From positions 62,001-126,000 of the forward strand of contig JACJGO010000009.1 of the NCBI GenBank assembly GCA_014163555.1: a stretch of 64,000 nucleotides of DNA, in the 5' to 3' direction. The notes under the pieces were generated by a model. It had not been told where the DNA came from. It was given only the letters and a program-made list of their open reading frames with translations, and made no database searches. Shown here in pieces: positions 9,225 to 55,722 of the stretch (position 1 is its first letter; each line of letters opens with the position of its first letter). A program made the translations under genes and the position numbers. This DNA comes from Flavisolibacter longurius (GTDB taxonomy: Bacteria; Bacteroidota; Bacteroidia; Chitinophagales; Chitinophagaceae).

Positions 9225-10952
9225 ATGGATGCACAGATCGAGCAAAAAGTAGCTACCTGGCTTAACGGCGCTTATGATGACGATGTAAAAAGCAGTATAC
9301 GGGACCTGCAGCAAAATAATCCGGACGAACTGGCGGATGCCTTTTATCGCAACCTTGAATTTGGTACGGGCGGCTTGCGGGGTATCATGGGCATTGGTAC
9401 TAACCGGATGAACAAATACACGGTAGGTATGGCTACACAGGGCTATACCAATTACCTGAAGCAATCATTCCCCAACGAAGAAATAAAAGTTGCCATTGCA
9501 CACGACAGCCGCAACAACAGCCGCTTTTTTGCCGAAACCGTGGCCAATGTTTTTGCTGCCAATGGGCTGAAAGTTTTCCTGTTTGAAGAACTGCGCCCAA
9601 CACCGGAACTTTCTTTCGCCATCCGGCACCTGGGTTGCAAAGGTGGTGTGGTGTGTACAGCTTCGCACAACCCTAAAGAATATAATGGCTATAAAGCTTA
9701 CTGGGTGGACGGTGGTCAACTGGTACCGCCGCACGATAAAGCCGTGATTACAGAAGTGGAAAAGATCGGTGATGTGAACGACGTAAAATGGTCGGGTGGG
9801 GAAAAGAATATTACCCTAATTGGAAAGGAATTGGATGAAGCCTACATCGCTATGGTGAAAGGGCTCAGCGTTTACCCTGAAGTCATCAGAGAGCAGAAAG
9901 ATCTCAAGATCGTTTATACGTCCATTCATGGAACCGGCATCAAACTGGTGCCGCAGGTATTGCAGGCCTTTGGCTTTGAAAATATCACAATCGTAGAGGA
10001 ACAGGCGACACCCGATGGTAATTTCCCCACCGTGGTTTACCCCAACCCCGAAGAAAGTGAAGCCATGAGTATTGGCCTGAAAAAAGCGCAGGAGATGGAT
10101 GCCGATATTCTTTGCGGAACCGATCCGGATGCGGATCGTGTAGGCATTGGCGTGAAAAATACCAAGGGCGAATGGGTGCTGATGAACGGAAACCAGACTG
10201 CTGTGTTGGCGTTTAATTATATGATTGAAGCCCGCAAGGAAAAAGGCCTGCAGCAACCCAACGATATGGTGGTAAAAACGATTGTAACCACCAATATGAT
10301 CGACGTTATTGCAAAAGAAGCCGGAGTAACCTGTTACAATGTGCTGACCGGGTTTAAATGGATCGCTGAACTGATTCGGGAAAAAGAAGGATCTGAAAAA
10401 TATGTTGTGGGCGGTGAAGAAAGTTATGGGCTGATGATCGGCGACCAGGTTCGGGACAAAGATGCCGTTTCGGCGGTAGCGTTATTGTGCGAGATGGCAG
10501 CCTACGAAAAATCGAAAGGCCGCAGCCTGTATGAAAAAATGCTGGACCTCTATGTGAAGTTTGGCTACTACCAGGAAGACCTGATCTCCATTACCAAAAA
10601 AGGCCGCAACGGCCAGCAAGAAATTGCAGACATGATGGAAGACTTCCGGGCTAATCCTCCTAAAGAACTGGCCGGCAGCAAAGTAGTGGAATTGCTGGAT
10701 TACGAAAAGCGGGTAAAGACCAACCTGCAAACAGGCGCCACGGAAGAAATTACCCTTCCCAAATCCAATGTATTACAGTTTATAACTGAAGACGGCAGCA
10801 AGATCAGTGCAAGGCCTTCGGGTACGGAACCCAAGATCAAATTTTACTTTAGTGTAAATACATCCCTGGGTTCAGTGGACAAGTTTGACGAAGCCCAGCA
10901 AAAGGCAAAGGGCAAGATCAAGCAGATCATCAGCGATATGAACTTATCCTGA
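9225..10952 (+). CDS. phospho-sugar mutase (phosphoglucomutase/phosphomannomutase)
   Basis: 575 residues, the long alpha-D-phosphohexomutase type. The phosphoserine loop TASHNPKEYNGYK has Ser at 147, the metal loop DPDADR lies at 300-305, the sugar loop GGEESYG near 400, and the phosphate loop RPSGTEPKIKF near 530. It interconverts hexose-1- and hexose-6-phosphates, feeding glycogen or nucleotide-sugar synthesis. A second mutase, GlmM, lies at 17621, so this one is more likely the glucose/mannose enzyme. Confidence 0.9.
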   Translation: MDAQIEQKVATWLNGAYDDDVKSSIRDLQQNNPDELADAFYRNLEFGTGGLRGIMGIGTNRMNKYTVGMATQGYTNYLKQSFPNEEIKVAIAHDSRNNSRFFAETVANVFAANGLKVFLFEELRPTPELSFAIRHLGCKGGVVCTASHNPKEYNGYKAYWVDGGQLVPPHDKAVITEVEKIGDVNDVKWSGGEKNITLIGKELDEAYIAMVKGLSVYPEVIREQKDLKIVYTSIHGTGIKLVPQVLQAFGFENITIVEEQATPDGNFPTVVYPNPEESEAMSIGLKKAQEMDADILCGTDPDADRVGIGVKNTKGEWVLMNGNQTAVLAFNYMIEARKEKGLQQPNDMVVKTIVTTNMIDVIAKEAGVTCYNVLTGFKWIAELIREKEGSEKYVVGGEESYGLMIGDQVRDKDAVSAVALLCEMAAYEKSKGRSLYEKMLDLYVKFGYYQEDLISITKKGRNGQQEIADMMEDFRANPPKELAGSKVVELLDYEKRVKTNLQTGATEEITLPKSNVLQFITEDGSKISARPSGTEPKIKFYFSVNTSLGSVDKFDEAQQKAKGKIKQIISDMNLS

Positions 10953-10957
10953 ATATT

Positions 10958-11074
10958 TGAACTGGGATAGATGGGATGGTAGGGATTCATAAGATCATTA
11001 TTAAGAAAGGCTGTTCGTACGAACAGCCTTTCTTTTTATCCCAAACATCTCATCCAACAAATCCAAGTTCAGAC
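10958..11074. repeat. nested palindromic element, copy 2 (inverted)
   Basis: Outer arms tgaactgggat (10958-10968) and atccaagttca (11061-11071) pair with one mismatch around a terminator hairpin. Its left side equals the reverse complement of copy 1's right side over 20 bases, and its right side matches the reverse complement of copy 1's left side with a 4-base indel, so the two copies are inverted relative to each other. Confidence 0.9.
11003..11036 (+). terminator. terminator after the phosphohexomutase gene
   Basis: Stem AAGAAAGGCTGTTC (11003-11016) pairs perfectly with 11021-11034 around GTAC, followed by T residues. It lies at the centre of the palindromic element. Confidence 0.85.
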
Positions 11075-11080
11075 ACTAAA

Positions 11081-11102
11081 AAAGCGCTCAGTTGAGCGCT
11101 TT
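11081..11102 (-). terminator. terminator after the methyltransferase-family gene
   Basis: Perfect 10-bp stem AAAGCGCTCA / TGAGCGCTTT with a 2-base loop. On the minus strand it is followed by a T tract, so it suits the gene at 11251-11838; it may work both ways. Confidence 0.75.
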
Positions 11103-11250
11103 CTTCTCTTGTGGCGGATGGACTTAATGCTATCTATAATGAATTTGGTTGCGGTATTCGATAACACAAAGTAAACATACCATTTTGTGCATCTGTATCC
11201 CGAATCGATGAACGGGAAAAAGGAGTGGTGGATTAGCAGGATAGTTTCGT

Positions 11251-11838
11251 TCAACGAAACCGCGGAATCAGTTTGGGCACGCTTTTCTGGTAGGCACGGT
11301 ACTGGTCTCCAAACTCTGCTATGAGCTTGGTTTCTTCCAGTTGAATGGCATAAAGGGTATAAGCGGTGATCACCACATTTGAAATAAGCAGGCTCAGGGT
11401 GGGCGCCAATAACCACAAGCCCCAGATGGCCAAAAACGTTCCGAGGTACAAAGGATGGCGCATATAACGATGTATGCCTTTGATCATAAGCTGTGACGAA
11501 GGCGTTTCCTGCACCAGGCTTTTTATGCCACTTAGGCTGACAAAATATTTTTTAATACAAACCAGCATGATGCCAACACCGGTAATCCCGATAAGGATGC
11601 CAGCAAGCGTCGAAAAAATTGTTTTTGGAAAAAGATCAACGCTTTGCATGCGCAGCTGGTAAAATACAATTGCAAAAAGTGACACCGCAGCAAACAGGGT
11701 ATAAAAAAGCCGGTAATGACGAAAACGTTTGCCGGCCATCTTTTGCACCCTTGCTTTTACGGAAAGGCTTGCCAGTACGCTGTGTAAAACGCAGTAAACA
11801 ATCCACAAAACCGCAAGGATAAGGTGTGTTTCCAGCAT
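11251..11838 (-). CDS. membrane methyltransferase, isoprenylcysteine/phospholipid type
   Basis: 195 residues with about five membrane helices. The C-terminal part has the ICMT/PEMT signature: RHPLYLGTF near 128-136, then LEETKLIAEFGDQYRAYQ near 167-184, a SAM-binding region in this superfamily. The substrate cannot be told; bacterial members methylate lipids or thiols or are uncharacterised. It is divergent from pcm with about 50 bases between starts. An 8-base palindrome GTTTCGTT/AACGAAAC (11244-11260) overlaps its stop. Confidence 0.75.
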   Translation of the reverse strand: MLETHLILAVLWIVYCVLHSVLASLSVKARVQKMAGKRFRHYRLFYTLFAAVSLFAIVFYQLRMQSVDLFPKTIFSTLAGILIGITGVGIMLVCIKKYFVSLSGIKSLVQETPSSQLMIKGIHRYMRHPLYLGTFLAIWGLWLLAPTLSLLISNVVITAYTLYAIQLEETKLIAEFGDQYRAYQKSVPKLIPRFR

Positions 11839-47384: not shown

Positions 47385-48710
47385 ATGCAGAATACAATAC
47401 AAAAAACCAATGGTAAACTCGGTGTATTGATACCGGGATTGGGCGCTGTGGCCACCACCTTTATTGCAGGTGTGGAAGCGGTGAAGAAAGGAATTTCACA
47501 ACCGGTAGGGTCGTTGACGCAAATGGGAAATATCCGCCTGGGCAAACGTACCGAGAACCGCTACCCGAAAATAAAAGAGTTTGTTCCTCTTGCCGGCCTG
47601 GAAGAAATGGTGTTTGGTGGCTGGGATGTGTACAGCGATAACGTGTTTGAAGCGGCCAGCAAAGCCAAAGTTCTTGAACCCATGTTGCTGCATGCTGTAA
47701 AAGCAGAGCTGGAAAGCATCAAGCCAATGAAGGCTGTTTTCGATAAATCCTACATTTCCAATCTGGATGGCGATCACGTAAAAGAAGCCGCCACCAAAGC
47801 CGACTTGGCCAAGATGGTGATGGATGACATTGAAAACTTCCGTGATGCCAACGACTGCGAACGGGTGGTGATTGTTTGGTGTGGTTCCACAGAAAAATAC
47901 ATCGAGACCTCAGATGTGCACCAAAGCATTGAAAGCTTTGAAGAAGGGCTACGCAACAATGATCCTGCTATTTCCCCTTCCATGATTTATGCCTACGCGG
48001 CGCTGAAGCTGGGTGTTCCGTTTGCCAACGGTGCCCCCAACCTGACCTGCGACATTCCGGCCCTGGAAGAACTGGCCAAGCAGACTGGCACACCCATCGG
48101 CGGTAAAGACTTTAAAACGGGGCAAACCCTGATGAAAACCATCGTTGCCCCTGGCCTGGCCGCCCGTGCTCTTGGTGTGAAAGGTTGGTTTTCCAGCAAC
48201 ATCCTGGGTAACCGTGATGGTTATGTGCTGGATCATCCTGATAACTTTAAAACTAAAGAAGTTTCTAAGCTGAGTGTACTGGAAGATATTCTGCAGCCTG
48301 AGCACAACCAGGAACTGTACGGTGAAATCTACCACAAAGTGCGCATCAACTATTATCCTCCGCATGGCGATAACAAAGAAAGCTGGGACAACATCGATAT
48401 TTTCGGCTGGCTCGGTTATCAAATGCAGATCAAGATTAACTTCCTTTGCCGCGATTCCATATTGGCAGCACCGATTGTATTGGACCTGGCCCTGTTTATG
48501 GACCTGGCCAAGCGGGCCAACATGTCGGGCATCCAGGAGTGGTTATCATTCTACTTTAAATCACCGCAAACCGCACCGGGGTTGCGTCCGGAGCACGACA
48601 TTTTCAAACAACTGATCAAATTGCAAAATACCCTCCGCCACATGATGGGAGAAGATCTCATCACACACCTGGGACTTGATTATTACCAGGACCTGGTGGA
48701 AGTTCTGTAA
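47385..48710 (+). CDS. ino1: myo-inositol-1-phosphate synthase
   Basis: 441 residues. The NAD-binding N-terminus begins LGVLIPGLGAVATTFIAGVEA near 9-29; the catalytic domain shows GGKDFKTGQTLMKT and NILGNRDGYVLDHPDNFKTK, hallmarks of Ino1/MIPS. It turns glucose-6-phosphate into inositol-3-phosphate, the first step to inositol lipids. It is the first gene of the inositol-lipid block and ends one base before the next gene. Confidence 0.95.
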   Translation: MQNTIQKTNGKLGVLIPGLGAVATTFIAGVEAVKKGISQPVGSLTQMGNIRLGKRTENRYPKIKEFVPLAGLEEMVFGGWDVYSDNVFEAASKAKVLEPMLLHAVKAELESIKPMKAVFDKSYISNLDGDHVKEAATKADLAKMVMDDIENFRDANDCERVVIVWCGSTEKYIETSDVHQSIESFEEGLRNNDPAISPSMIYAYAALKLGVPFANGAPNLTCDIPALEELAKQTGTPIGGKDFKTGQTLMKTIVAPGLAARALGVKGWFSSNILGNRDGYVLDHPDNFKTKEVSKLSVLEDILQPEHNQELYGEIYHKVRINYYPPHGDNKESWDNIDIFGWLGYQMQIKINFLCRDSILAAPIVLDLALFMDLAKRANMSGIQEWLSFYFKSPQTAPGLRPEHDIFKQLIKLQNTLRHMMGEDLITHLGLDYYQDLVEVL

Positions 48711-48711
48711 T

Positions 48712-49164
48712 ATGTTTTTTTCAAAACTCATCGCCACATTTTTTGGCGTTGGCTACATACAAAAAGGTGCAGGCACATTGGCTGCACTTTTTTGTTGTGT
48801 TGCCTGGTATTTTTGGTTGGGACAAACTGGCCTTGCGACGGAAATAAGTCTGCTCGTACTTGTATTTTTCCTGGGCGTGATTACGGCAACAACTGTTGAA
48901 AAGGAGTGGGGCCACGACAGCAACCGCGTAGTTATTGATGAAGTGCACGGGATGCTGATGGCATTGTTCCTGGTACCGGCAGACTGGCGTTATGTGTTGA
49001 TAGCGTTTGTTCTGTTCCGCTTTTTTGATATTGCCAAACCACTGGGAATCCGAAGGATGGAAAGGCAGCCGAAAGGTTGGGGTGTGATGTTGGATGACCT
49101 GTTGGCTGGATTGTATTCTAACGTAATTTTGCAGATTATCATCAAAAGCCACCTTTTTTCATGA
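48712..49164 (+). CDS. PgpA-like phosphatase, probable phosphatidylinositol-phosphate phosphatase
   Basis: 150 residues, small integral membrane protein. PgpA-family motifs: TFFGVGYIQKGAGTLAAL near 9-26 and DEVHGMLMAL, then FFDIAKPLGIRRME...GVMLDDLLAGLYSN. PgpA normally dephosphorylates phosphatidylglycerol phosphate. Here its place right after ino1 suggests PIP to PI. In B. thetaiotaomicron a PgpA-like gene in the inositol cluster is reported in this role (from memory). Confidence 0.78.
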   Translation: MFFSKLIATFFGVGYIQKGAGTLAALFCCVAWYFWLGQTGLATEISLLVLVFFLGVITATTVEKEWGHDSNRVVIDEVHGMLMALFLVPADWRYVLIAFVLFRFFDIAKPLGIRRMERQPKGWGVMLDDLLAGLYSNVILQIIIKSHLFS

Positions 49165-49532
49165 TCCGCTTCGCCAAAGCTCAACTGGCCTCCTTTGTTG
49201 CGTCTTCTGTAGATTATTTCATTACCATTCTCTGCGTGGAGTTTATGGGATTCTGGTATGTGGCCGGTAGCAGTACCGGTACCATCATCGGCGGCATGAC
49301 CAATTTTTCTATCGGCAGGCATTGGGTTTTTAAGGGCGGCGAGCGGGAACGGCACATTCAACTGCTACGCTATTTCCTGGTATGGACGGGCTACCTTTTT
49401 CTTACCACCATGGGAGTTTACCTGTTAACGCATTTTGGCCATTACAATTATCTTTTTTCCAAACTATCCGTTACACTTTTTCTGGCGGTTGCCTACAATT
49501 ATCCTTTGCAGAAGCGCTTTGTTTTCAAATAA
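49161..49532 (+). CDS. GtrA-like membrane protein
   Basis: 123 residues, four membrane helices. The GtrA pattern is visible: FAKAQLASFVASSVDYFIT, GGMTNFSIGRHWVFKGG near 40-57 and an NYPLQKRFVFK end. GtrA proteins help flip or transfer polyprenyl-linked sugars. It overlaps the PgpA-like gene by 4 bases (ATGA), so they are translationally coupled. Confidence 0.82.
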   Translation: MIRFAKAQLASFVASSVDYFITILCVEFMGFWYVAGSSTGTIIGGMTNFSIGRHWVFKGGERERHIQLLRYFLVWTGYLFLTTMGVYLLTHFGHYNYLFSKLSVTLFLAVAYNYPLQKRFVFK

Positions 49533-49596
49533 ATATTTTACGGGTCCAGCTTAATTTGTATAAAGTATTCAGGCTTATTCCCTATTTTTTGCTTTC

Positions 49597-51012
49597 ATGC
49601 AAAAGAAAAAGCGGGTCGTATTTTATTTGCTGGACGGTGCCCGTCCTGACATTCTCCAAAAACTTCTCAGTCAAAATTATCTTCCGAACCTTGCACAGAT
49701 TATTGCAGAAGGTACGTTCCGTACAGCGACAACCTGTTTGCCATCTACCACCGGTCCGGCGTATCTGCCTTTTCTGACCGGGCACTTTCCCGGGACAATG
49801 AATATTACCGGCATCCGTTGGTTTGACAAAAAGGAGTTCCGACGTACCCGGTTCAATAAACGGGCCATGCGTTCTTATTGCGGGCCGGAAGCGGCCTTCT
49901 TTAATGCGGATATGGAGGCGGAAAAGCAAACTTTGTTTGAACGAATTGACAAATCATACAACGTTTACAACATGGTAACCCGGGGTCTGAAAAAGGAATA
50001 CGATATCACACCCCGAAACAAAGGATTGCTTTACACTAAGGCTCATTTTCTATTGCGTCATCATCCTGTCGACAGAAAGGGTCATGAACAGATCATGGCT
50101 TTATTGAATAGAGGAGACGATTTTGATTTTCTGTTTGCGGTTTTTCCCAGCGTGGATTGGGATTCGCATTATCATCATTTTGAAGACAAGCGTACAATTG
50201 ATGCCTATAAAATTGCGGACGATAGTATTGGCGAGATGCGCAATAACCTGGAGAAAAAAGGATGGTGGCAAGACACCTTGTTCCTATTGACCTCTGATCA
50301 CGGACTTTCGGCTACGCATACTCATTTCGATGTTGGCGACTGGATGACAGCGCATGACCTGCGGTCGGTAAGTTACCCGGTTATCTGGCGGCGATCACCC
50401 AAGTCAGCCGTCATGATTTCAGGAAATTCTTTTGGAAGTGTTCACTTATTGAATCACAAAGGTGATCATGTCTTGCAAAAAAAAGAGCTGTTAACGTACC
50501 TGGGTGCTGACAGGTTAAAAATGTTTACGGCAGAAAAAGCAGTTGATTTTATTGCATACCGAAATGAAATCCCGGGCAGCTATTCGATTCAGAATGCGGC
50601 GGGATCGGCTGTGATAAAAAAAGAAAATTTGTTGTTTGCGTACCATCCTGAAACAAGGGATCCGCTGCAATTGGGTGACCTTTCACCAAAAGGTGACCGC
50701 GACACCTTGGAAGCGACGATAGGAACAGGCTACCCGGATGCGCTGGTACAGATTGCACAATTGTTACAAAGTCGCCGTGCCGGCGATTTTATTGTTTGTG
50801 CTAAAGATGGATACGACCTGCGGGATTTTTGGGGATACCCGGAACACAAAGGATCACATGGTTCACTGGCAAAAGAACACATGCTGGTGCCATTGATTTA
50901 TAACCAAAAGGGATGGGCCAACTACCCTGTAAGAACGGCCGACCTGTATGCAACGATTTTGCAGTGGTTGGAGAAAACGGCTCTATCCTCAGAAGGTGTG
51001 TCATTACTATAA
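49597..51012 (+). CDS. alkaline-phosphatase-superfamily phosphodiesterase
   Basis: 471 residues, no clear signal peptide. Motifs: LLDGARPDILQKLL near 9-22 with the metal Asp, the nucleophile Thr expected in TTCLPSTTGPAYLPFLTG near 46-63, FPSVDWDSHYHHFE, and TSDHGLSATHTHFD. This matches the nucleotide pyrophosphatase/phosphodiesterase group. In this locus it may act on an inositol-lipid or glycerol-phosphate head group; the substrate is inference. Confidence 0.8.
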   Translation: MQKKKRVVFYLLDGARPDILQKLLSQNYLPNLAQIIAEGTFRTATTCLPSTTGPAYLPFLTGHFPGTMNITGIRWFDKKEFRRTRFNKRAMRSYCGPEAAFFNADMEAEKQTLFERIDKSYNVYNMVTRGLKKEYDITPRNKGLLYTKAHFLLRHHPVDRKGHEQIMALLNRGDDFDFLFAVFPSVDWDSHYHHFEDKRTIDAYKIADDSIGEMRNNLEKKGWWQDTLFLLTSDHGLSATHTHFDVGDWMTAHDLRSVSYPVIWRRSPKSAVMISGNSFGSVHLLNHKGDHVLQKKELLTYLGADRLKMFTAEKAVDFIAYRNEIPGSYSIQNAAGSAVIKKENLLFAYHPETRDPLQLGDLSPKGDRDTLEATIGTGYPDALVQIAQLLQSRRAGDFIVCAKDGYDLRDFWGYPEHKGSHGSLAKEHMLVPLIYNQKGWANYPVRTADLYATILQWLEKTALSSEGVSLL

Positions 51013-51038
51013 AATATACGCTGTACTAATATTCATAT

Positions 51039-52172
51039 ATGCCTGTATCGCAAACTTCAGTAATTGTTGAAAAAGAGCAGGAAACAGAAAAGAAAGCTGC
51101 TTCGCTTTTTAACCAAAGACGTTTGATCAGGCGGTGCATTTGGTTTGTGCTGATTACCGTTTTGACCATCGCAGCAATCTTTATTTACAACCGGGGTGGA
51201 GAATCTATCTCTGTACTAAAGCACCTGCAATTCTCCTATCTTATTTTTTGTTTTTTTCTTTTGTTTATTGATCTGATGTTAGGAAGTTGGCGCAATCACA
51301 TATTTATCCGGAAGCTAAAGCCGGGTTTATCCCATTGGGTGAGTTTTCGGGCAAACGTAGCCAATATGTTTATGGGTGCTGTTACACCGGCGCACAGCGG
51401 AGCCGGACCTGCACAGATTTATGTGTACATGCGTAACAGTGTACGTTTTGTAGATGCCTTTACAGTGAGCCTGATCAACATGGGCGCAACTCTTATTTTT
51501 ATGCCAACGGCAGGACTGATTGCCATTTTTCTCTTGCGGGAAAACGTATCGGATGGAATAGTTCCTGTGCTGTTACAATACGGGTTTGGCTTTTTTACAC
51601 TTTTTCTCTTGGCGTTTTTGTTGGCTTTTTGGAGACCGTTGTGGATTGGAAGGGTGATCATGAAAATAGCGCAATGGCTTTCCGTACTCTTTCCAAAGAA
51701 AAAATCAAAATTGTTGCGGTGGAGCCTACATTCAAACAGCAGCATTCAAACCTATCAACAGACCTCCAGCCTTTTGCTGAAGCAGCATAAAATGTTGTTT
51801 CCCTTCAGTCTACTTATTACAACCTTACTTTACCTGAACAAATATTGCATGCAATATTTTATCCTCCTGGGTTTGGGCATTGAATCTGATATTCTGCAGG
51901 TGGTTGTTGTGCAGGTCCTTATTCAGTTCATGATCTATTTCGCACCCAGTCCGGGCGGTAGTGGCTTTGCTGAAATGAGTATCGCTGTTCTTTTCGAAAA
52001 AATTGTACCGGCTGCAGTGTTACCCCTGTTTACTTTGCTGCAGCGATCCTACCTTTTATTTTTTCCCTCCATTATTGGCGCTGCTGTTGTTATCCGCCTG
52101 TTACAACGACAGGCGAAGGAATGGAGGAGAGATCCACTGACCAATGGCAATAATGGGTCTGCAATTAAATAA
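51039..52172 (+). CDS. flippase-like integral membrane protein (UPF0104/LPG-synthase TM type)
   Basis: 377 residues with about eight membrane helices. It is related to the membrane half of lysyl-phosphatidylglycerol synthase and YbhN, with motifs AHSGAGPAQIYVYMRN near 127-142 and PSPGGSGFAEMSIAVLF near 305-321. Such proteins are thought to move lipids across the membrane. Here it could flip PI or its precursor; this is inference. Confidence 0.8.
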   Translation: MPVSQTSVIVEKEQETEKKAASLFNQRRLIRRCIWFVLITVLTIAAIFIYNRGGESISVLKHLQFSYLIFCFFLLFIDLMLGSWRNHIFIRKLKPGLSHWVSFRANVANMFMGAVTPAHSGAGPAQIYVYMRNSVRFVDAFTVSLINMGATLIFMPTAGLIAIFLLRENVSDGIVPVLLQYGFGFFTLFLLAFLLAFWRPLWIGRVIMKIAQWLSVLFPKKKSKLLRWSLHSNSSIQTYQQTSSLLLKQHKMLFPFSLLITTLLYLNKYCMQYFILLGLGIESDILQVVVVQVLIQFMIYFAPSPGGSGFAEMSIAVLFEKIVPAAVLPLFTLLQRSYLLFFPSIIGAAVVIRLLQRQAKEWRRDPLTNGNNGSAIK

Positions 52173-52312
52173 TTGATGGCGTTATCATGCTATCGGAGGC
52201 TGTAGAATACACAGCGCATACAGCAAGTCAATCGTGAGGTGGTCTGTAAGTTGCTACCATCTTTATTTCTGGTTCACCGGCCGTAAACCTGTATGTTTGA
52301 GTCAGAATTGTA
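52173..52312. other. gap inside the inositol-lipid block
   Basis: 140 bases without a gene, terminator hairpin or clear promoter box; the block may be read through. Confidence 0.4.
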
Positions 52313-53047
52313 ATGAAATTTGCCAGTATGGAATCGAAGTCACTTCGTATAAAACTTCAATTTGGTATTTATAAAATCATCGACCCGTTTGTAAAACTTC
52401 TGATTAAAATTGGATTTACACCCAATCTGGTTACCATTGTTGGATTTTTTCTGAACATTGGCGTCGCCGTCATATTTGTGTTGGGTGCCGAAAAAACAAA
52501 CCGCGGTGATTTTTCCTACGTTGGCTGGGCCGGCGGCTTAATCCTCTTTGCCGGAATCTTTGATATGCTCGACGGACAGGTGGCCCGCTTGGGAAAAATG
52601 AGTTCATCATTTGGTGCTTTTCTTGATTCGGTGCTTGACCGCTACAGTGAGTTGTTTATGTTCCTGGGTATTTGTTATTACCTCGTATCGCAACACTATT
52701 TTGTTTCTTCCCTGTTTGCCTTTATTGGTTTGATCGGTTCGATGATGGTGAGCTATACAAGGGCCAGGGCCGAAGGACTGGGTATTCAGTGCAAAGGAGG
52801 CTTGATGCAACGGCCCGAAAGAGTGGTTTTGGTAGGTACTTCGGCCTTGCTTTGTGGTATTCTGGCGCCGCACATTGGCCCCGATTTTAAGTGGCATGTC
52901 AAGGGCATACCGTTTCACCTTTTCGAAACCATGTCCATCTTCACTATACCCTTAACGGTGCTGGCTATCCTTACCAATGTTACGGCGTATCACCGGGTGA
53001 TGGAAGCCAAACGGGCACTGGATGCAAAAGATGCAAAGGGAAACTAA
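52313..53047 (+). CDS. CDP-alcohol phosphatidyltransferase, probable phosphatidylinositol-phosphate synthase
   Basis: 244 residues (52328 is an alternative start), about six membrane helices. The CDP-OH signature D-x2-D-G-x2-A-R-x8-G-x3-D-x3-D is present from GIFDMLDGQVARLGKM to GAFLDSVLDRY (about 82-110). It joins CDP-diacylglycerol to an alcohol. In this cluster the alcohol is probably inositol phosphate, giving PIP. Phosphatidylglycerol-phosphate synthase is the main alternative. Confidence 0.85.
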   Translation: MKFASMESKSLRIKLQFGIYKIIDPFVKLLIKIGFTPNLVTIVGFFLNIGVAVIFVLGAEKTNRGDFSYVGWAGGLILFAGIFDMLDGQVARLGKMSSSFGAFLDSVLDRYSELFMFLGICYYLVSQHYFVSSLFAFIGLIGSMMVSYTRARAEGLGIQCKGGLMQRPERVVLVGTSALLCGILAPHIGPDFKWHVKGIPFHLFETMSIFTIPLTVLAILTNVTAYHRVMEAKRALDAKDAKGN

Positions 53048-53076
53048 TTCTTACGCCACCAACTTTACCTTCCATT

Positions 53077-53084
53077 AATTTTGT
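53077..53084 (+). promoter_or_regulatory. TAnnTTTG promoter box before the PAP2/AUR1-like gene
   Basis: TAATTTTG, 21 bases before the ATG at 53106; this gene may also have its own promoter. Confidence 0.5.
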
Positions 53085-53105
53085 AGCCAAATCGGCTGCA
53101 AAAGT

Positions 53106-54092
53106 ATGATACCAGAATCCGGGTTAGAAGAAAGGGTGTTACGTTCATCACCAGCAAAAGCCATCGAAGAATCATCGCGACTAATTACACTGAAAAGCGT
53201 TCTTTTATGTGCGCTGCTTTCCGCTGCCTATTTAACCCTTTCCCGGGTACTCGTTGGATTTAAATCCGATCAGTTAGTGTTGGTAGGAATTTTTAATCTC
53301 TGCTTTTTTGCCAGTCGGGTGACAAGGCAATTCATTATCGGCTTCTCCATTTTTATCGTGTACTGGATCCTGTTCGATTACATGAAAGCCTTTCCGAATT
53401 ATTTGGTCAATGATGTTCACATTGCCGATTTATACGCTGCTGAAAAAGCCCTGTTTGGCATTTCAACAAATGGTACCATTTTAACGCCGAACGAATATTT
53501 TGCTTTGTATAATTCCAAAGCCGTTGATATTGTTACGGGCATTTTTTATCTCTGCTGGGTACCGGTTCCCTTGGCCTTTGCCGGGGTAATGTTTTTTAAA
53601 AACCGGGTTGCGTTTTTCCAGTTTTCCCTCACGTTTTTCTTGGTGAATATTCTGGGATTCATTGGCTATTATCTTTACCCGGCAGCTCCGCCGTGGTATG
53701 TAGCGCAGCATGGCTTTGATTTTTTAGCTTCTACGCCGGGCAATACGGCCGGGCTTTCCCGCTTCGACGATTTTTTTAATGTTTCTATTTTCGAAGGCAT
53801 TTATGCAAAAAGCTCCAATGTATTCGCTGCCATGCCCTCCATGCATGCGTCTTTTATGCTGATCGTGTTGTTCTATGGGTTGAAATACAGGATGAAAGGC
53901 TGGAATATCCTTTTTGCCATGATTATGACCGGCATCTGGTTTTCGGCCATTTATTCCAGCCACCACTATATTCTGGATGTTCTGGCCGGAATCGGCTGTG
54001 CCATTGCCGCCATAACCATTTTGCAATGGTGGATGAGTCGAAAAAGCGGTAAGCGCTTCCTTAATTCCCTCCTGTTTCACACATCGAATTAA
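53106..54092 (+). CDS. PAP2/AUR1-like membrane enzyme, probable inositol phosphoryl-ceramide synthase
   Basis: 328 residues with six or so membrane helices. The PAP2 core resembles AUR1: GYYLYPAAPPWYVAQHG near 186-202, AMPSMHASFMLIV near 242-254 (PSMH), and SSHHYILDVLAGIG near 283-296. IPC synthases move phosphoinositol from PI to ceramide. In this block that would yield an inositol sphingolipid. A plain lipid phosphatase is the alternative. Confidence 0.8.
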   Translation: MIPESGLEERVLRSSPAKAIEESSRLITLKSVLLCALLSAAYLTLSRVLVGFKSDQLVLVGIFNLCFFASRVTRQFIIGFSIFIVYWILFDYMKAFPNYLVNDVHIADLYAAEKALFGISTNGTILTPNEYFALYNSKAVDIVTGIFYLCWVPVPLAFAGVMFFKNRVAFFQFSLTFFLVNILGFIGYYLYPAAPPWYVAQHGFDFLASTPGNTAGLSRFDDFFNVSIFEGIYAKSSNVFAAMPSMHASFMLIVLFYGLKYRMKGWNILFAMIMTGIWFSAIYSSHHYILDVLAGIGCAIAAITILQWWMSRKSGKRFLNSLLFHTSN

Positions 54093-54240: not shown

Positions 54241-55722
54241 ATGAAAACAGACCTAATTCAGCAGGAAAATGTTGTGGTGGATGAAAGCATGGACATTCTG
54301 GAACAGACCGTTCGAAATGAATACAAGTATGGCTTTGTTACCAACATTGAAGCTGATGAAGCCCCAAAAGGACTAAACGAGGATACCATCCGTTTTATCT
54401 CGGCAAAAAAAGAAGAGCCGGAATGGATGCTGGAGTGGCGCCTGAAGGCATTTCGCCAATGGCAAAAAATGAAAGAGCCGCATTGGGCCAACCTGAATTA
54501 TCCCGCTATCGATTACCAGGATATCATTTATTATTCTGCTCCCAAGCAAAAGGAAAAGCCCAAGAGTCTGGATGAAATTGACCCGGAACTGCGCAAAACG
54601 TTTGAAAAGCTGGGCATTTCCCTGGATGAGCAGAAACGCCTCACCGGTGTGGCTGTGGATGCTGTAATTGACTCTGTTTCAATTGCTACAACCTTCAAAG
54701 AACAACTGGGTGAGCTGGGAATCATCTTCTGCTCCATGAGTGAAGCCATTCAAAATCATCCGGACCTGATAAAACAATACCTGAGCTCGGTTGTACCAGT
54801 CACCGATAACTTTTTTGCTGCGCTGAATGCTGCCGTGTTCAGCGACGGCTCTTTTGTTTATATTCCAAAAGGCGTTCGCTGCCCGATGGAACTTTCCACC
54901 TATTTCCGTATCAATGCCGAAAATACCGGCCAGTTTGAGCGGACGCTGATTGTGGCCGAAGAAGGCAGTTACGTCAGCTACCTGGAAGGCTGCACGGCGC
55001 CCATGCGGGACGAAAACCAATTGCATGCCGCTGTGGTGGAACTGGTGGCCATGGACAACGCCGAGATCAAATACTCGACGGTGCAAAACTGGTATCCCGG
55101 CGACAAAGAAGGCAACGGTGGTATCTACAACTTCGTAACCAAGCGGGGTATCTGTAAAGGCGTGAATTCAAAAATTTCCTGGACACAGGTAGAAACCGGT
55201 TCGTCCATTACCTGGAAATACCCCAGCGTAATTCTGAAGGGGGATAACTCGGTAGGGGAGTTTTACTCTGTTGCCGTTACCAATAACTACCAGCAAGCCG
55301 ATACCGGTACCAAAATGATGCACCTGGGCAAAAACACTCGCAGCCGCATTGTATCAAAAGGTATTTCGGCCGGCTTTAGCCAGAACAGTTACCGCGGCCT
55401 GGTGCATGTAGGGAAAAACGCTACCGGTGCCCGCAACTTCTCGCAGTGCGATTCGCTCTTGCTGGGCGATAAATGCGGCGCCCATACCTTCCCATACATC
55501 GAAGTGAAAAACAAATCCGGCGTGGTAGAACACGAAGCCACTACCTCAAAAATCGGTGAAGACCAGATCTTCTACTGCAACCAACGCGGTATCGATACCG
55601 AAACGGCGGTAGCCCTGATTGTAAACGGATTTGCCAAAGAAGTAATGGCGCACCTGCCGATGGAATTCGCTGTCGAAGCACAGAAACTGCTTGCTATCAG
55701 CCTTGAGGGCAGCGTCGGATAA
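54241..55722 (+). CDS. sufB: Fe-S scaffold complex subunit SufB
   Basis: 493 residues; a member of the SufB/SufD beta-helix family with the SufB core motifs ([55 protein letters not shown] and [16 protein letters not shown]). SufB holds the nascent Fe-S cluster in the SufBC2D complex. First gene of the suf operon; SufC follows 66 bases later. Confidence 0.95.

Follow-up and report, generated by a model that had tools for sequence, protein, structure and literature searches.

A probable inositol-lipid operon with an inserted phosphodiesterase and flippase-like gene pair in Flavisolibacter longurius

Inositol lipids of bacteria have so far been associated mostly with Bacteroidetes that live on hosts. 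Here we describe a block of seven genes in a 64,000-nucleotide stretch of Flavisolibacter longurius DNA (the window; assembly GCA_014163555.1, contig JACJGO010000009.1, positions 62,001 to 126,000). The 5.66 Mb source assembly was found to hold one gene for myo-inositol-phosphate synthase (MIPS), one for phosphatidylinositol-phosphate synthase (PIPS) and one for the phosphodiesterase (PDE) discussed below. Taking the explanation as a whole, including the role given to the PDE and its partner, we consider it rather probable that the block is an inositol-lipid operon of the BT_1522-BT_1526 type known from Bacteroides thetaiotaomicron, carrying an inserted accessory pair that encodes a type-I PDE and a flippase-like membrane protein. 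The pair was always accompanied by an inositol-lipid synthase homologue in the tested genomes, which hints at an undescribed step in the inositol-lipid metabolism of bacteria.

Each of the seven open reading frames (ORFs; Table 1) matches a Pfam family above its cut-off, in the order Inos-1-P_synth/NAD_binding_5, PgpA, GtrA_DPMS_TM, Phosphodiest, LPG_synthase_TM, CDP-OH_P_transf and PAP2_3, and the genes are separated by +1, -4, +64, +26, +140 and +58 bases. The initial annotation of this DNA had given the same seven plus-strand genes, coordinates, spacing and families. The cluster of B. thetaiotaomicron has been described as BT_1526 (MIPS), BT_1525 (PgpA-family PIP phosphatase), BT_1524 (GtrA), BT_1523 (PIP synthase) and BT_1522 (Aur1-like) in the available text of PMC9246714, and that of PMC8791184 lists BT1522-1526 with genes of these five types. 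All five have a counterpart in the window. The nearest Protein Data Bank (PDB) relative of the window MIPS, at 539 bits against 217 bits for the next PDB sequence, is 7nwr, which is the structure of BT_1526 (PMC9246714). The gene of the PgpA family starts 1 base downstream of MIPS. The window PIPS passes the BT1523 equivalog NF052561 with 385.6 bits (cut-off 350), holds the motif DX2DGX2AR...GX3DX3D reported for BT_1523 (PMC9246714), and has PI/PIP synthases and other CDP-alcohol transferases, not PgsA, as its closest PDB chains. Assignment of this protein to PgsA was considered and rejected on these relatives and on a pgsA score of 38 bits.

The last gene of the block encodes a PAP2 protein related to yeast Aur1. 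A profile of the PAP2 proteins finds Aur1 with an E-value of 1.5e-27, the sole NCBIfam match of the window protein is NF052609, and all 26 of the 26 aligned PAP2 proteins match that family. The AlphaFold2 model (mean pLDDT 93) was compared with the PDB, and the only matches at E<=0.001 were the Aur1 structures 9vj4 and 9ivc, with TM-scores of 0.62-0.71; the best match to a PAP2 phosphatase was at 1.8e-2. Identity to Aur1 is about 20%, the PAP2 His/Asp motifs are common to both, and no search was made for a Kei1 partner. The motifs PSxH and HHYxxD, which we take to be the catalytic motifs of PAP2 enzymes, are conserved among the aligned proteins. An ordinary phosphatase was rejected as the identity of this protein on these structure matches. 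The comparison with yeast Aur1 that the initial annotation had proposed thus came out in favour of an Aur1-like enzyme, and neither this protein nor the CDP-alcohol transferase groups with ordinary phosphatases or PgsA. With MIPS nearest BT_1526, PIPS among the PIP synthases and PAP2 with Aur1, the suggestion of a B. thetaiotaomicron-like cluster in a free-living-type genome holds.

The genome also has candidate genes for ceramide supply at another locus. A serine palmitoyltransferase (SPT) gene found as a 62% identity match at C58:369756-370940, and above the NF047600 cut-off (657.5 vs 640), has genes for a GNAT protein and an epimerase next to it on the downstream side. The GNAT protein had no NCBIfam match, and the epimerase had weak general matches below cut-off. 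Both presumably resemble the bacterial CerS/CerR, and their ceramide roles are presumed from position. Since SPT stands with GNAT and epimerase genes elsewhere in the genome, inositol phosphoceramide is a plausible product as judged from the sequence. Among the 18 genomes of the genus of the window, PIPS was over cut-off in seven, and SPT (at least 60% identity) was found in four, all within those seven.

The core of the block recurs in other genomes. In a phylum sample of 395 genomes, 14 (the window included) have PIPS over cut-off. Cluster genes were counted by phmmer at E<=1e-8 among ORFs of at least 90 aa in fetched stretches of 16-19 kb, with the window taken from its Pfam results. The 14 clusters included Aur1 in 14, GtrA in 13, MIPS in 13, PgpA in 10, SPT in the fetched stretch in seven and the PDE in one. 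Because MIPS lies in the same stretch as PIPS in 13 of the 14 genomes, the block is not a chance arrangement. Of the two neighbours that the initial annotation had singled out for a search across Bacteroidota, GtrA is a regular member of the cluster and the PDE was found in a single one. Overall, the core corresponds to the known inositol-lipid pathway of B. thetaiotaomicron and is ordinary for Bacteroidota; the lineage lies outside the large survey of PMC9246714, which covers seven genera in its available text.

Variants of the core were also observed. Four PIPS clusters, L157, L159 and L160 (Pedobacter) and L158, have SPT and Aur1, with MIPS missing from the fetched stretch; these organisms may import inositol, or their MIPS may lie elsewhere in the genome. 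PIPS ORFs of 427-452 aa were seen at 12 of 51 PIPS loci (L030:11063-12397, L043, L157-L160, L163, L168, L181, L182, L185 and L186). In L030, the only one of these long loci on which Pfam was run, PIPS is fused to a C-terminal DUF4833, and L037 has DUF4833 as a gene of its own downstream of PIPS. This domain probably takes part in inositol-lipid metabolism.

The position between GtrA and PIPS is where the clusters differ. Among the seven cluster genomes of the genus, this slot is empty in four (G033, G398, G399 and G400), holds a DUF5686-type protein in one (G405) and holds the PDE with the flippase-like protein in two (the window and G402, whose PDE is 77% identical to that of the window). In four other clusters of the same family (L028-L031) and in six fetched Mucilaginibacter clusters (L033, L034, L037, L040, L041 and L187), the slot contains a DUF5686/CarboxypepD_reg protein about 850 aa long, the Pfam assignment having been made on L030. 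Such clusters of Chitinophagaceae and Sphingobacteriaceae share the core and gene order of the window, and differ from it in the slot protein and in often having SPT, GNAT, epimerase and FA_hydroxylase genes in the same stretch. The pair has thus been inserted into, or exchanged within, an operon that is stable in other respects. A strongly foreign GC content of the pair was ruled out (PDE 0.458, flippase-like gene 0.427, AUR1 0.436, window 0.469). The DUF5686 protein seen inside the inositol-lipid operon at L030:8493-11039 is probably a protein of the outer membrane and possibly serves lipid export.

The gut cluster of B. thetaiotaomicron differs from the window in having no PDE and flippase-like gene between GtrA and PIPS. 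The window also stands apart by its free-living-type genome, by a PAP2 that scores under the BT1522-type cut-off and by having its ceramide genes at a separate locus. The initial annotation had counted GtrA, the PDE and the flippase-like protein as additions to that cluster. For GtrA this was mistaken, as BT_1524 is a GtrA gene inside the B. thetaiotaomicron cluster (PMC9246714). For the PDE it stands, this enzyme not being named in the main text of PMC9246714 or PMC8791184 (word count 0). For the flippase-like protein it holds in part: homologues of BT_1521 (lysylphosphatidylglycerol synthase-like, the same LPG_synthase type) and of BT_1527 (carboxypeptidase-regulatory-like) have been reported near gut clusters (PMC9246714), and the window protein showed no BLASTP similarity (E=2.0) to the LPG_synthase-type neighbour of the Bacteroides-type cluster L035, a comparison that was not made with BT_1521 itself.

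The PDE belongs to the NPP/alkaline-phosphatase superfamily, as its modelled fold and its metal and nucleophile residues indicate. Among 32 aligned rows, one of them truncated, D13, T52, D187, H191, D234 and H235 show no variation and H421 almost none, and we take these putative ligands to be the two-metal ligands and nucleophile of the superfamily. The segment GIRWFDK is also invariant. HMMER alignments of the PDE with ENPP4 and ENPP1 span the metal and nucleophile regions, the nucleophile part at only 5-13 bits, and the top-scoring solved sequences were phosphonate monoester hydrolases at 38-39 bits. The model (pLDDT 92.9) matched the folds of NPP3, phosphonoacetate hydrolase, NPP1, ENPP6 and XacNPP. 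Foldseek E-values for the NPP type (the choline glycerophosphodiesterase ENPP6, XacNPP) and phosphonoacetate hydrolase were 1e-15 to 1e-17, with TM-scores of about 0.53-0.62 on query length and aligned metal and nucleophile regions. The window PDE differs from these enzymes in identity (11-16%, at a root-mean-square deviation of 5-7 A), in its predicted cytosolic location and in being tied to genomes with PIPS. A simple hydropathy script found no transmembrane-like segment in the PDE, which is predicted to be soluble and cytosolic, and seven such segments in the flippase-like partner.

Evidence for a function of the pair in inositol-lipid metabolism comes from where it occurs. Of the 395 genomes of the phylum sample, 24 gave a PDE match at E<=0.001, and four of these matches were strong (the window and three at 62-63% identity). 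All four strong PDE genomes have PIPS, and of the 20 with a weak PDE-like gene, which serve as a control, one does. A sample of 251 genomes of Sphingobacteriaceae, the family of Mucilaginibacter G261, had PIPS over cut-off in 84 and the PDE in 26, and all 26 PDE genomes fall within the PIPS set (Fisher 2e-14, a value that ignores kinship). In addition, 52 named PDE loci were collected. PIPS was tested one by one in the 25 not labelled Mucilaginibacter, and a homologue was found in 25 of 25, in 12 of them over cut-off; by comparison, only 18 of the 395 genomes of the phylum sample reach even 80 bits. The 27 loci labelled Mucilaginibacter were left out of this test, and three of them (L118, L131 and L134) correspond to G379, G363 and G261, which belong to the family sample. 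Two of the 25 named genomes are also among the 26, as identical match coordinates revealed, so that the two sets comprise 49 distinct genomes in addition to the window.

The two genes of the pair usually stay together. Two of the 52 loci were excluded for an incomplete PDE; at the 50 readable loci the flippase gene directly follows the PDE in 39 and comes one gene later in four. No flippase gene follows the PDE at seven loci (L095, L133 and L136-L140), two of which have fewer than 450 bases left. Outside the genus the pair is usually unlinked from the cluster, and it lies far away where both are readable on one contig, as in Mucilaginibacter G261 (PDE at 3.90 Mb and MIPS at 3.19 Mb, about 700 kb apart). 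In the PDE tree the copy of Chitinophaga GbtcB8 is nested among those of Mucilaginibacter (inner forks 84-93; 26-row group 96/87), and a Ferruginibacter copy lies next to these, in a group of 30 rows (100/98) whose internal order is weak. Both the Chitinophaga and the Ferruginibacter genomes carry PIPS. This nesting suggests transfer of the pair, which, on the sequence evidence, seems to be a mobile module.

Other genes were noted next to the PDE at single loci. At L133:8718-9914 and 10001-11416, in a Bacteroidota metagenome-assembled genome (MAG), the gene directly before the PDE encodes a protein of 398 aa that ends in a CDP-alcohol phosphotransferase domain, its N-terminal part being without a family. 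Two deltaproteobacterial MAGs (L137:1318-2079 and L140:691-1344) have an HpnM/MlaC-like gene directly before the PDE (48-57 bits, below cut-off), again a lipid-transport context. Genes resembling, by eye, an ECF sigma factor, a FecR-type protein and an STN-domain outer-membrane protein lie upstream of the pair at L093:6139-9986 (Pedobacter) and L124:6293-9935 (Chitinophaga).

From the observed gene content, families, co-occurrence and active-site conservation we infer the following chemistry. By analogy with B. thetaiotaomicron, PIPS would join inositol phosphate to CDP-diacylglycerol (CDP-DAG) to form phosphatidylinositol phosphate (PIP-DAG), the PgpA-like phosphatase would trim PIP-DAG to phosphatidylinositol (PI), and the Aur1-like PAP2 would transfer phosphoinositol from PI onto dihydroceramide, the latter supplied by the SPT/GNAT/epimerase locus. 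The PDE would cleave or transfer the phosphoinositol headgroup, in turnover or remodelling, and the flippase-like protein would carry the lipid substrate or product over the inner membrane. PIPS acts at the cytosolic face, and yeast Aur1 faces the lumen. A soluble PDE with a flippase would therefore be well placed to meet PI or PIP-DAG, before or after flipping. Since a PIPS homologue was found in every tested PDE genome, the PDE substrate is probably an inositol phospholipid, or the product of one, at the cytosolic leaflet. On a wider reading, to which we give about even weight, the pair is an undescribed, horizontally moving module acting on inositol phospholipids, which PI-making environmental Bacteroidota have gained and which would play in bacteria the part that phosphoinositide turnover or headgroup remodelling plays in eukaryotes; more distant relatives of the PDE, without the partner, occur in Myxococcota- and Calditrichota-type genomes.

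Several observations weigh against an inositol phosphoceramide operon with a functionally linked pair. The window PAP2 fails NF052609, the equivalog for phosphoinositol dihydroceramide synthase (335.5 vs 480 bits); membership in that curated family is therefore not claimed, and the modelled structure suggests a protein that works like Aur1 yet is not filed there. In G399, whose listed completeness is 100%, the core of five genes, MIPS-PgpA-GtrA-PIPS-Aur1, is intact (L141), with no SPT orthologue (best 37%) and a GNAT homologue of only 27%, and SPT was also not found in the less complete genomes G400 and G405. Deletion of the GtrA gene BT_1524 left inositol lipids as in the wild type by thin-layer chromatography (PMC9246714). 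Among the 25 named PDE genomes, 13 have a PIPS homologue under cut-off, at 84-337 bits. These include L136-L140, which are not labelled Bacteroidota (84-279 bits); here neither Aur1 nor SPT was found in the fetched stretch, and the PDE is not followed by a flippase gene; for L136, L137, L138 and L140 (84-150 bits), which also show no MIPS there, the identity of PIPS is uncertain. Finally, a strong PDE occurs in only two of the 18 genus genomes, with a 20-bit match in a third, so the PDE is not needed for the core.

The missed cut-off and the genome of G399 would both fit a cluster that makes PI and whose PAP2 passes the head to a non-ceramide acceptor or is an ordinary PAP2 phosphatase. We consider this unlikely, as Aur1 is the sole PDB match of the model at E<=0.001, ahead of the nearest PAP2 phosphatase, the window genome holds SPT, GNAT and epimerase genes together, and SPT lies in the cluster stretch in half of the phylum-sample clusters. 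The scarcity of the PDE in the genus, the distance from the cluster in G261 and co-occurrence figures that ignore kinship could likewise mean that the PDE and flippase serve some unrelated function and came to lie in the operon by chance, as hitchhikers. This, too, appears improbable, because the PIPS homologue accompanies the PDE in both sets of genomes despite the usual absence of linkage, and weak PDE-like genes do not track PIPS.

The PDE could also act on PIP-DAG as a phosphomonoesterase, which would give the pathway two PIP phosphatases, or on CDP-DAG as a nucleotide pyrophosphatase. The superfamily includes both types (PafA and NPP1/3 are among the PDB relatives), the GIRWFDK segment provides basic residues, and five of the six fetched Mucilaginibacter clusters have no PgpA (L034, L037, L040, L041 and L187; L033 has it). 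The window carries PgpA and the PDE together, however, and the PgpA-less G214 (L034) and G532 (L187) are also without the PDE. Action on CDP-DAG, which is not specific to inositol lipids, would leave the dependence on PIPS unexplained. Both activities are considered unlikely, and headgroup cleavage or transfer is proposed as the most likely. The PDE as a general stand-in for an absent PgpA was rejected, since G214 and G532 lack both (by fetched cluster or genome search) and the window has both.

With regard to known systems, Sphingobacterium spiritivorum has already been reported to make ceramide phosphoinositol (PMC9246714), and the present counts show that a BT1523-type synthase is common in Sphingobacteriaceae, a largely free-living family. 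As far as searched, the PDE-flippase pair is the first concrete candidate for a step on these lipids after their synthesis. Among the open-licence PMC papers listed by the literature searches, no report of the PDE-PIPS link was found, and as far as these go both the accessory pair and its connection with PIPS are new.

Table 1. Genes of the inositol-lipid block, with positions in the window
Feature	Position	Strand	Evidence
MIPS, BT_1526-like	47385..48710	+	PF07994 349 bits, PF01658 113 bits
PgpA-like phosphatase, presumed PIP phosphatase, BT_1525-like	48712..49164	+	PF04608 139 bits; function by analogy with BT_1525
GtrA-family small membrane protein, BT_1524-like position	49161..49532	+	PF04138 60.8 bits
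Type-I phosphodiesterase (PDE), alkaline-phosphatase superfamily, first half of accessory pair	49597..51012	+	PF01663 114 bits
LPG_synthase_TM / flippase-like membrane protein, second half of accessory pair	51039..52172	+	PF03706 112 bits, TIGR00374 109 bits
PIPS, phosphatidylinositol-phosphate synthase, BT_1523-like	52313..53047	+	NF052561 385.6 bits
Aur1-like PAP2, presumed inositol phosphorylceramide synthase, BT_1522-like	53106..54092	+	NF052609 335.5 bits

Promoter and terminator scans gave numbers near the shuffled level (16 against a mean of 11.9, sd 3.8, and 11 against 9.8, sd 3.6, respectively). The next ORF begins at 54241, 148 bases past the end of the block, and is a candidate SufB, read without a family scan.

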